Shown one piece after another: positions 49,946 to 55,232 of a stretch of 64,000 nucleotides of DNA. A program made the position numbers and the translations under genes. Within the stretch, counting starts at the first letter, position 1, and each line of letters opens with the position of its first letter. This stretch comes from Salvelinus alpinus (Eukaryota > Chordata > Actinopteri > Salmoniformes > Salmonidae). The notes beneath the pieces were generated by a model. That model saw only the letters and a program-made list of their open reading frames with translations, was not told the DNA's origin and ran no database searches. Location: assembly GCF_045679555.1 (NCBI RefSeq), contig NC_092093.1, positions 62,140,365-62,204,364 of the forward strand. Reading direction: 5' to 3'.

Positions 49946-50050
49946 TCATATTAAACCTTTGTCTCCCCTATCTTTTATGAAAGTGACATTGAAGCAGGCA
50001 ATGTGGTAACCGTATTGGTTCACCAAAACAACATGCACATCATGTTGACC
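49946..50050 (-). CDS. ly86: ly86 last exon
   Basis: The acceptor ctctcctctccag starts a 105-nt exon coding GQHDVHVVLVNQYGYHIACF, then NVTFIKDRGDKGLI and a TGA stop at 49948-49946. It aligns with the family's final strands (GEYQVLLELY and ACANATI in the human protein) and keeps the last Cys and an N-linked glycosylation site, NVT. The exon begins at phase 0. Because exon 3 ends in phase 1, an exon of suitable phase is needed between them, and none is seen. Confidence 0.72.
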   Translation of the reverse strand, partial: GQHDVHVVLVNQYGYHIACFNVTFIKDRGDKGLI

Positions 50051-50619
50051 CTGGAGAGGAGAGCAGAGGAAGAATAAATTCACAATATAAACTTCACAAG
50101 AATGAGTCCAAATATACACTTCACAATATCAGATGCAATCAATATCAAATAACAATTGCACACAAGTTTACCAGTGGTAAATTGTCCAGATTCTTCATAA
50201 TCAATCAATTACGCAAATAAACACACACACAATTTTAAAGTTTAAGAAACACATCCAAGTGAACCAAAGTTGTATATTAGTCATCAATCTATTCAATGTA
50301 TCATTCATTTTTGCACACCATTGTGCTAGAGTGCACCCTGCTAATGTATTCTGTTAATGCGTCCCGTCTATCTATGCTGTCCATGTTTTCAACAGTATAG
50401 CTTACATTTTAGCATAAGGCCTATATGCCCTTTAACAAATGTGTATATGGATAAACAAAACATAACCTACACAAACAGTCCCTTTAGAAAGTATTCACAC
50501 CTCCTGACTTTTTCCACATTTTGTTGTGTTACAGCCTGAATTTTAAGTGGATTAAATGGAGATGTTTTTGTCACTAGCTTACACACAATACCCCATAATG
50601 TAAAAGTGGAATTATGTTT

Positions 50620-51844
50620 TTGAGCCAATCAGTTGTGTTGTGACAAGGTAGGGGTGGTATACAGAAGATAGCCCTATTTGCTAAAAGACCAAGTCCATAT
50701 TGTGGAAAGAACAGTTCAAATAACCAAAGAGAAACGACATGAAGGTCAGTCAATGCGGAAAAATTTCAGGAACTTTGAACGTTTCTTCAAGTGCAGTTGC
50801 AAAAACTATCAAGTGCAATGATGAAACTGGCTCTCATGAGGACCGCCACAGGAAAGGAAAACCCAAAGTTACCTCTGCTGCAGAGGATAATTCATTAGAG
50901 TTAACTGCACCTCAGATTGCAGCCTAAATAAATGCTTCACAGAGTTCAAGTAACAGACACATCTCAACATCAACTGTTCAGAGGAGACTGCATGAATCAG
51001 GCTTTTGTGGTCGAATTGCTGCAAAGAAACCACGACTAAAGGAGACCAATAAGAAGAAGAGACTTGCTTGGGCCAAGAAACACGAGCAATGGACATTAGA
51101 CCGGTGGAAATCTGTTCTTTGGTCTGATGAGTCCAAATTTGAAATTTTTGGTCCCAACCGCCGTGTCTTTATAAGACGCAGAGTAGGTGAACAGATGATC
51201 TCTGCATGTGTGGTTCCCACTGTGAAGCATGGAGGAGGTGGTGTGATGGTGTGGGGGTGCTTTGCTGGTGACACTGTCAGTGATTTATTTAGAATTCAAG
51301 GCACACTTAACCAGCATGGCTACCAAAGCATCCCATCTGGTTTGTGCTTGGTGGGAATATCATCTATTTTTCAACAGGACAATGACCCAAAACACACCTC
51401 CAGGTTGTGTAAGGGCTATTTGACCAAAAAGGAGAGTGATGGAGTGCTGCATCAGATGAACTGGCCTCCACAATCACCCGACCTCAACCCAATTGAGATG
51501 GTTTTGGATGAGTTGGACCGCAGAGTGAAGGAAAAGTAGCCAAGAAGTGCTCAGTATATGTGGGAACTCCTTCAAGACTGTTGGAAAAGCATTCCAGGTG
51601 AAGCTGGTTGAGAGAATGCCAAGCGTGTTCAAAGCTGTCATCAAGGTAAAGGGTGGCTAATTTGAAGAATCTAAAATCTAAAATATATTTTGATTTGTTT
51701 AACACTTCTTTGCTTACTACATGATTCCATATGTGTTATTTCACAGTTTCGATGTCTTCACTATTATTCTACAATGTAGAAAATAGTGCAAATAAAGAAA
51801 AACCCTTGAATGAGTAGCTGTGTCCAAACTTTTGACTGGTACTG
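50620..51844 (+). mobile_element. Inner Tc1-like element (different family), 5' end lost
   Basis: The right end reads tgtccaaacttttgactggt plus actg, followed by TA. This terminus belongs to a family distinct from the outer one. The matching left inverted repeat is missing, and the element begins abruptly near ccaatcagttgtgttgtgac. It carries a nearly complete but broken transposase. Confidence 0.82.
50738..51660 (+). pseudogene. Tc1 transposase pseudogene
   Basis: The N-terminal part begins MKVSQCGKISGTLNVSSSAV in a helix-turn-helix region, and the [11 protein letters not shown] linker follows. The middle gives [21 protein letters not shown] sequence near 51100 with the first catalytic Asp. 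The C-terminal part gives VKHGGGGVMVWGCFAGD, then IFQQDNDPKHTSRL with the second Asp, then WPPQSPDLNPIEMVLDELDR with the catalytic Glu in NPIE. All three acidic residues survive, but frame breaks near 50925 and elsewhere and a small deletion prevent a full product. Confidence 0.87.
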
Positions 51845-52685
51845 TATCTGTAAGGTACCTCAGTCGGGCAATTCATTTAAAATACAGATTCAACCACAAA
51901 GACCAGAGATGTTTTCCAATGCCTCGCAAAGAAGGGCACCTATTGGTAGATGGATAACAAAAATAAAAAGCAGACATTGAATATCTTGTTGAAGTTATTA
52001 ATTACACTTTGGAAGGAGTATCAATATACCCAGCCACTACAAAAATACAGGCGTCCTCCTATCTCAGTTGGCGGAGAGGAAGGAAACCGCTCAAGGATTT
52101 CACCATGAGGCCAATGGTGACTTTTAAACAGTAACAGAGTTTAATGGCTGTGATAGTAGAAAACTGAGGATGGATCAACAATATCGTAGTTACTCCACAA
52201 TACTAACCTAATTGACAGAGTGAAAAGAAGGAAGCCTGTAACAGAATACAAATATTCCAAAACATGCATCCTGTTTGCAACAAGGCGTTGCAACGTTTTG
52301 TCCTGAATACAAAGTGTCATGTTTGGGGCAAATCCAACAACACAAGAAAATCTGGAATAAGTCAAGGGGTATGAATACTTTCTGAAGGCACTGTCCCCCT
52401 CTACTCTGTAACACAATGTGCATTTAATGCAAGAGAGACTTAAGATGTTATTTTTAGGTTGAGTTTTTCTTGACATGGGGCTTAATTCAATCAAACCCGC
52501 ATTTCTGTATTTACACCATAGTGTTTTTCCCCCATGGTCAAATAAACTCACAGACTGGGCTATATAAAAACCTACAACTACAGTACTACCATGCAGTGAA
52601 GTTTGTAAACATAGTGAGCATAGCTATGGTAGTTACTGGGTATGATCGAATTCCAGCCCTGATCTGCTATTAGTACCACACGTAC

Positions 52686-52814
52686 CTCCTTTCTTCCGGG
52701 AGCAGAAGGTGAAGCAGGGGAAATCGGGCAGGCACAGGGGCTCGTCATGGGATAACTAAGCCACCACTCCTGTGAGCACATTAGCAGACAGGTATAGCTC
52801 CTCAATAGACTGCC
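52686..52814 (-). pseudogene. ly86: ly86 exon 3, with a premature stop
   Basis: The acceptor ctctcccacag leads a 129-nt exon encoding QSIEELYLSANVLTGVVA, a TAG stop, then LSHDEPLCLPDFPCFTFCSR and KKG. The exon ends at a GTACGT donor in phase 1, as in the family. The stop sits where other LY86 proteins have an ordinary residue in the middle of the fold, so the product would lose the C-terminal half. Nearby residues remain conserved, which suggests the stop is recent or an error. Confidence 0.82.
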
Positions 52815-53503: not shown

Positions 53504-53635
53504 CTGGAAAAAACAAACAGAAACATTAGAGCAACTTAAGCCATTTTTTACATTTTCTTATGAGAAGAAGAAATTAATTAATCCATAAAATGAAACTGAC
53601 ATGACTATCACAGTACAGCAATTTGCTAAAAAATA

Positions 53636-54800
53636 CAGTGCTTTCAGAAAGTATTCCCACCCCTTGACTTAATTTATTTTTTTATTGTGTTACAAAGTGG
53701 GATTAAAATGAATTGAATTGTCATTTTTTGTCAGCAATCTACACAAAATACTCTAACTTCAAAGTGGAAGAAAAGTTCTAACATTTGTAAGGCACTGCCT
53801 CTCAGTGCTTGAGGCGTCACTACAGACCCTGGTTCGATTCCAGACTGTATCACAACATAAGATGGTGCACAATTGGCCCAGCATTGTTAGGGTTTGGCCG
53901 GGGTAGGCCGTCGTTGTAAATAAGAATTTCTCCTTAACTGACTTGCCTAGTTAAATAAAAGTTTTTTTTTTTTTATGTTGTCAAAACTGTGACAACTTTG
54001 CCACTGTCTTCTTGGTAAGCAACTAAATTTGGCCTTGTGTTTTAGGTTATTGTCTTGATGAAAGGTGAATTAATCTTCCAGTGTTTGGTGGAAAGCAGAC
54101 TGAATCAAGTTTTCCTCTAGGATTTTGCCTGTGCTTAGCTCAATTCCATTTCTTTTTTGTCCTGATAAACCCCCCAGTCCTTAACGATTACAACCATACC
54201 CATAACATGAAGCAGCCACCACTATGCTTGAAAATAATGAGAGTAGTTCTAAGTAATGTGTTGTATTGGATTTGCCCCAAACATAACACTTTGTATTCAG
54301 GAAAAAACAAAGTGTTTTTGCAGTATTACTTTAGTACCTTGTTGCAAACAGGATGCATGTTTTGGAATATTTTTATTCTGTACAGACTTCCTTCTTTTCA
54401 CTCTGTCAATTAGTTTAGTATTGTGGAGTAACTACAATGTTGTTGATCCATCCTCAGTTTTCTCCTGTCACAGCCATTAAACTGTGCAACCATACAAAGT
54501 GAGTCGCTGCAACTTATTATGTGACTTGTTAAGCACATTTTCACTCCTGAACTTATTTGGGCCTTCCATTACAAAGGGGTTGAATAATTATTGACTCAAG
54601 ACAGTTCAGCTTTTCATATTTAATTCATTTGTAAAAAAACATTATTTTTTTTAAATAATCTAAAAACATAATTCCACTTGGACATTATGGGGTATTGTGT
54701 GTAGGTCACAATAGAAAATCCCTTACAATTTTAAATGCAGGATGTAACACAACAAAATGTGGAAAAAGTCAAGGGGTGTGAATACTTTCTGAAGGCACTG
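53636..54800 (-). mobile_element. Internally deleted Tc1-like element with a SINE insert
   Basis: The ends cagtgctttcagaaagtatt and gaatactttctgaaggcactg are flanked by TA (53634-53635 and 54801-54802). The remaining transposase-region sequence reads on the minus strand (gtggtggctgcttcatgtta) and is decayed. The element lies in the first intron of ly86. Confidence 0.88.
53788..53975 (+). mobile_element. Salmonid tRNA-derived SINE (HpaI/FokI-like), 5'-truncated
   Basis: Box B ggttcgattcc is at 53831-53841, followed by gcacaattggcccagc, gtttggccggggtaggccgt and cttaactgacttgcctagtt aaataaa. It ends in a T-rich run. It is nested in the Tc1, so it is younger than that element. Confidence 0.88.
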
Positions 54801-55093
54801 TAGCCCCACTGTGGTAGTGCTATAGCTCTACTCAGCGTCAAGGAATCAAAACATGTGCAGTTCAATAATACATTCTTGGTAGGCAGTCGTCGTTAACATT
54901 AACTCACTCTTTGCCTCACCACTGTAATGTTTGCTTCCTTGCCACTGGGCACAAACTGGTTGACTCAGTGTTGTTTCCAACATGGAGTAGACGTTGAATT
55001 GACGTCTGTGCCCAGTGTTTTTGTACTGTCGTATTATCACATAGTGAGTTGCTTTGCAAATGAAAAGGAATACTTTATTTTTTTTTAACTCAC

Positions 55094-55232
55094 CACAGCT
55101 GCGATAGAACATCTGCAGTTTGTCCGTGTTGCAAATAGTGTGGACAGGTCATTGGACCTCCTGAACTAACCCCCTCTGGGGCCAGTAGGCCAGCAGGATA
55201 GCTAGAACCAAGAGCAGAGCTTGGTGAGGCAT
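55094..55232 (-). pseudogene. ly86: ly86 exon 1 (signal peptide), with a premature stop
   Basis: ATG at 55232-55230 opens MPHQALLLVLAILLAYWPQR, a clear hydrophobic signal peptide for secretion. Codon 28 is TGA in a context (VQ-stop-PVHTIC) where LY86 has Trp-Pro. The exon continues NTDKLQMFYRSC and ends one base into the Asp codon at a GTGAGT donor (55093-55092). The phase matches exon 2 exactly. A single TGG to TGA change would explain the stop. Confidence 0.8.

Follow-up and report, generated by a model that had tools for sequence, protein, structure and literature searches.

In a 64,000-nucleotide stretch of the Salvelinus alpinus genome (hereafter the window; C8:62140365-62204364 in the 2.37-Gb assembly of 928 contigs that we searched), the minus strand carries a broken copy of ly86, the gene for MD-1, and we found that its duplicate on C10 and the only locus recovered for CD180 (RP105) are broken in the same assembly. 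MD-1 is a secreted lipid-binding partner required by RP105, and in mammals the RP105/MD-1 complex tunes lipopolysaccharide and B-cell responses. Because MD-1 acts with RP105 and both are broken, loss of the complex is the simplest account. The likeliest course of events, to which we give a probability of roughly 80%, is that this lineage ceased to use the complex, after which both subunits decayed. It is also probable, although we hold this with less assurance, that this genome, and with it a salmonid lineage, has lost the whole receptor, with every copy of each subunit. Under this account MD-1 would have been inherited as two working copies from a genome doubling, each ly86 copy would have decayed through separate lesions, alongside RP105, and loss of one subunit would have released selection on the other; we infer, rather than observe, the order of these losses and their extent among salmonids.

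A sequence-only reading of the window had matched four minus-strand exons with correct splice phases to LY86, and this assignment held. By joining the exons, with X placed at the stops, and searching PDB with phmmer, we recovered five LY86/MD-1 chains at E-values of 2.9e-21 to 1.5e-18, compared with 8.3e-6 at best for MD-2 (LY96), and on this similarity the exons are closer to MD-1 than to MD-2 and the gene is identified as ly86. Over 114-115 aligned residues, the encoded sequence is 36-41% identical to the MD-1 proteins of human, cattle, mouse, and chicken (PDB 3b2d, 3rg1, 3m7o/3t6q, and 3mtx), with exon content and phases alike where testable, while the window copy differs from the genes of these four species by two stops and a broken exon 4. 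Searches with exons 2 and 3 in viral contigs and in bacterial and archaeal genome contigs yielded 27 and 159 stretches, respectively, that matched a pattern, none of which encodes a relative.

The exons comprise exon 1 (55094..55244, minus strand), which encodes the signal peptide and the start of mature MD-1, exon 2 (53414..53503, minus strand), exon 3 (52686..52814, minus strand), and the last exon with its stop codon (49946..50050, minus strand), with GT/AG borders at the splice sites. Exon 2 is open with both splice sites kept, exon 3 keeps its donor (GTACGT), and the last exon is open with its acceptor kept. An in-frame TGA in exon 1 (55151-55149) falls on a position that is Trp in the MD-1 of cattle, mouse, chicken, and human (4/4); it is codon 32, at the beginning of the mature domain. 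The second stop, a TAG, lies in frame in exon 3 (52758-52756). Both stops had been read correctly, as had the phase conflict ahead of the last exon, which begins in phase 0 after three exons that each end in phase 1; splicing exon 3 straight to the last exon shifts the frame and meets a stop within a few codons. With two stops and a frameshifted exon 4, the window contains no open ly86 frame from the signal peptide to the last exon. Read-through or selenocysteine insertion at the TGA was set aside, as exons 3 and 4 are broken too.

The fourth exon had been described as missing, with nested Tc1 elements filling most of the interval where it should lie. The Tc1 block is real (50475..52394, in intron 3), but the exon has left a trace outside it. 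Profile scans confined to the window copy, running from exon 3 to the last exon, found no exon 4: the best of 31 splice-flanked open candidates scored -10.2, and the best score when splice sites were ignored was 7.5. In a power check of this kind of scan, run on 49 eighteen-residue segments of the other exons, the true place ranked first in 38 cases, and so true absence was favoured at first; it was overturned by the duplicate. The scan covered six stretches (both strands of both ly86 copies and two sub-stretches), and the plus strand of C10 gave a candidate of 53 bases in the right phase (C10:21159565-21159617), which reads ELIVYEKPFKLNLDYLPW and is followed by GTGAGC. Among 1000 Markov sequences, 0.3% reached so high a score with a GT after it, as did 1.7% of 600 random pieces cut from the window at the same length; with the GT ignored, the shares were 4.6% and 7.8%, respectively. 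Pairwise alignment places the window counterpart at 50210-50172 (50172..50210, minus strand), where 39 of the 53 bases remain after a 14-base frameshift deletion, the upstream acceptor AG is absent, and the donor (GTAAAC) is kept. The gene has the phase pattern 1,1,1,0 with a 53-base exon 4, at full length in C10 and as a 39-base remnant in the window, visible there only through the homeologue. The remnant sits between the Tc1 block and the last exon, with the block lying upstream in intron 3, and thus the block did not remove exon 4. Nor is the block a fresh insertion, since its outer inverted repeats (50475-50530 and 52339-52394) are 86% complementary. Within these nested elements, a Tc1-type transposase piece of 203 open codons lies on the plus strand at 50928-51536 (Pfam HTH_Tnp_Tc3_2, 1.4e-15), and a further Tc1-like element in intron 1 (53634..54802) has end repeats that are 95% complementary over 37 bases.

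The homeologous region, to which a check of the window had been directed, was found on C10, where C10:21150942-21168846 is collinear with, and inverted relative to, window positions 40482-64000 and holds the second ly86. The collinear block and its even neutral divergence indicate that the two copies are probably ohnologues of the salmonid genome duplication, an attribution that we also draw from the size of the genome, its duplication, and its Tc1 load. In C10, exon 1 was not found in the homeologous block, and of exon 2 only a short remnant is left, its acceptor altered. Exon 3 is open with its donor lost to an 18-base deletion, exon 4 is full-length but has lost its acceptor, and the last exon is open. 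The C10 copy is thus more decayed than the window copy, and both copies are pseudogenes. Stops and deletions are not common to the two copies where they can be compared, exon 1 not being comparable in C10. The proposal that one MD-1 ohnologue is dying was therefore right in that ly86 is broken in the window and a duplicate exists, and wrong in that the duplicate is not intact and both copies are lost. That the sister copy nevertheless keeps the MD-1 function, with the window copy alone dying, could draw on its open exon 3 and last exon, its full-length exon 4, and the listing of ly86 in the accessible part of a trout spleen study (PMC9396386); given the missing exon 1, the exon 2 remnant, and the lost exon 3 donor and exon 4 acceptor, we regard it as exceedingly improbable.

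Additional copies were searched for with exons 2 and 3 at E<=0.001, and three of five candidates matched (two on C8 and one on C10), all from the two known loci, such that this query found no third ly86 in the genome. It recovered the 71%-identical C10 exon at 9.7e-11, and a sister or tandem ly86 would have been seen. Human MD-1 as query also gave no match in the genome, but it is an insensitive query that missed even the two known copies, and an older or diverged paralogue could escape it, as could a copy lying in an assembly gap. Such a third, intact copy keeping the MD-1 function is unlikely in view of the exon 2-3 search and because its partner CD180 is broken as well; we infer that no intact copy remains elsewhere.

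CD180, the partner, was sought with the human ectodomain, and among the 73 of 582 candidates scored there were 60 matches in the genome at E<=0.001, of which the two best are neighbouring pieces at C18:26706543-26707624, whereas the longest frames at six other loci were judged by eye to be other leucine-rich repeat proteins. Searched separately in PDB, two C18 pieces matched CD180 best, at 1.7e-22 (next family 1.5e-11) and 2.8e-25 (next TLR13, 1.7e-15), and these scores put the locus nearer to CD180 than to the other receptors with leucine-rich repeats. This only CD180 locus found (C18:26708004-26706543, minus strand, within C18:26702001-26712000) is a pseudogene: it runs through three frames with several frame changes and contains in-frame TAG, TAG, and TGA codons, no functional CD180 open reading frame is present, and a search of 30 kb did not recover residues 1-83 of the query. 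It lies beside a MAST-family gene, represented by a PDZ exon pair, and fits what we take to be the human MAST4-CD180 neighbourhood. One C18 piece used as query matched only itself among 26 candidates in the genome, and therefore any second copy of CD180 has been lost or is much decayed.

Divergence between the ly86 copies was used to estimate the selection on them, with the adjacent sharpin pair as comparison. The ly86 copies have Ka of 0.183, Ks of 0.206, and a noncoding distance of 0.214 (251 differences in 1350 aligned bases), and their Ka/Ks is 0.89 (0.42-2.22; 62 codons, leaving aside the stop codon and the final 9 codons of the last exon, a part in which the two copies are of unequal length). 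The sharpin pair has a Ka/Ks of 0.34 (0.18-0.66; 196 codons, after dropping six that ran past exon ends), and the ly86 ratio was not above that of sharpin in 2.7% of bootstrap pairs (0.027). A useful product of the window locus, for instance a regulatory RNA or a protein made by read-through or exon skipping, would be compatible with the kept splice sites of exons 1-3 and with a Ka/Ks interval reaching down to 0.42, but the locus has a stop at codon 32, skipping of exon 4 shifts the frame, and coding and noncoding divergence are alike; we rate such a product as highly improbable. Lesions that are assembly errors or a segregating null allele, with the gene working in most fish, would fit a window copy known from one assembly sequence. 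The damage here is several and unlike (two stops, a 14-base deletion, and a lost acceptor), the Ka/Ks with the sister copy is near-neutral, C10 and CD180 are damaged independently, and the adjoining 3' exons of sharpin are clean in the same sequence, which together make this very unlikely. Loss of use of the complex and subsequent decay of both subunits remains the account that we prefer.

The sharpin copy in the window (58512..64000, plus strand, running off the window) is itself broken in exons 1-3 and open in its later exons. A single deletion takes 23 bases from exon 1, exon 2 has losses of 2 bases and 1 base, and exon 3 lacks 2 bases. An initial description of the exon 1 damage as two frameshifts was ruled out by the C10 copy, which shows one 23-base deletion. 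In the C10 copy all six exons compared are open. Like ly86, sharpin thus has a broken window copy in adjacent position from the same duplication; unlike ly86, for which no copy was kept, its C10 copy was retained.

The earlier suggestion that the ly86 loss is recent found no support. The MD-1 protein still looks well conserved because the copies differ by only ~0.2 substitutions per neutral site, and Ka, Ks, and noncoding distance are alike. From two stops and no frame-changing indel (without exon 4), the neutral share of the time since duplication was best estimated at 0.42 (0.07-1.0), and with the exon 4 deletion counted at 0.56 (0.14-1.0). The lesions thus fit a neutral fraction of 0.14-1.0, and recent loss is possible but not favoured.

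Several observations weigh against loss of the receptor or against the evidence given for it. The window copy comes from one assembly, and its exons 1-3 retain their splice sites. Its Ka/Ks interval leaves room for some constraint. In Pfam, the joined window exons without exon 4 matched no family at E<=1, and the ML domain (PF02221) appeared, at 2.3e-5, only after the letters of human exon 4 were placed in the query gap. The identification of exon 4 in C10 is a short match with a score of 13.5, in which chicken MD-1 shares 6 of 18 residues and the MD-1 of each mammal 5 of 18. Neither ly86 copy has kept the acceptor of exon 4; the letters there differ between the copies, and one shared older event may lie behind both losses. 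The CD180 search scored 73 of 582 candidates. An older, diverged ly86 paralogue may have escaped the searches. Finally, a rainbow trout spleen study, in the part available, lists ly86 among differentially expressed genes (PMC9396386), and given this listing some salmonids may have escaped the loss, or the label may be loose.

Beyond ly86 and sharpin, zinc-finger exons to the left of the window on the same strand as ly86 are recognised by us as rreb1, PDB having given only general zinc fingers, and we take RREB1 to adjoin LY86 in human; the window ly86 therefore looks to be in its ancestral place beside rreb1. On the minus strand at 39990-40001, a short first coding exon, MSRRKQPNPNKVE, is followed by a GTAAGT donor and is probably the start of rreb1; its beginning is similar to the N-terminus by which FOG and SALL proteins recruit repressors. 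Three minisatellites occupy 20155-23905 (37-base unit, ~108 times), 7627-9628 (26-base unit, 77 times), and 30191-31360 (39-base unit, 30 times). Scans of the window for tRNA and Rfam families were empty.

If the loss is true, a salmonid lacking both genes would bear on the unusual endotoxin biology of farmed salmonids. It would also give a clean natural example of receptor and partner lost together despite a spare partner copy from genome doubling, and with it a natural test of whether MD-1 has any role once RP105 is gone and whether partners die as a pair even when doubling has left a spare. For labels of 'ly86' in salmonid gene lists, the frame should be checked before a working gene is assumed. 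Our search of the literature, which had incomplete coverage, found no report of ly86 or cd180 loss in salmonids.

Among other bony fishes, the accessible parts of published studies describe ly86 and cd180 genes in zebrafish (PMC8138431, PMC11429319), ly86 in carp (PMC6933926), and CD180 in grass carp (PMC6274997). The zebrafish genes are reported to act in antiviral defence, with knock-down of both raising susceptibility to virus (work cited in PMC8138431, as far as that text is available); in the assembly studied here, the same two partner genes are pseudogenes. A survey of immune duplicates in brown trout (PMC7952528), whose main text, the part available, contains no occurrence of ly86, cd180, or sharpin, likewise describes loss of copies after the salmonid genome duplication. 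Compared with what that part of the survey describes, the case presented here differs in that the damage affects each of the two ly86 copies and also the partner gene.

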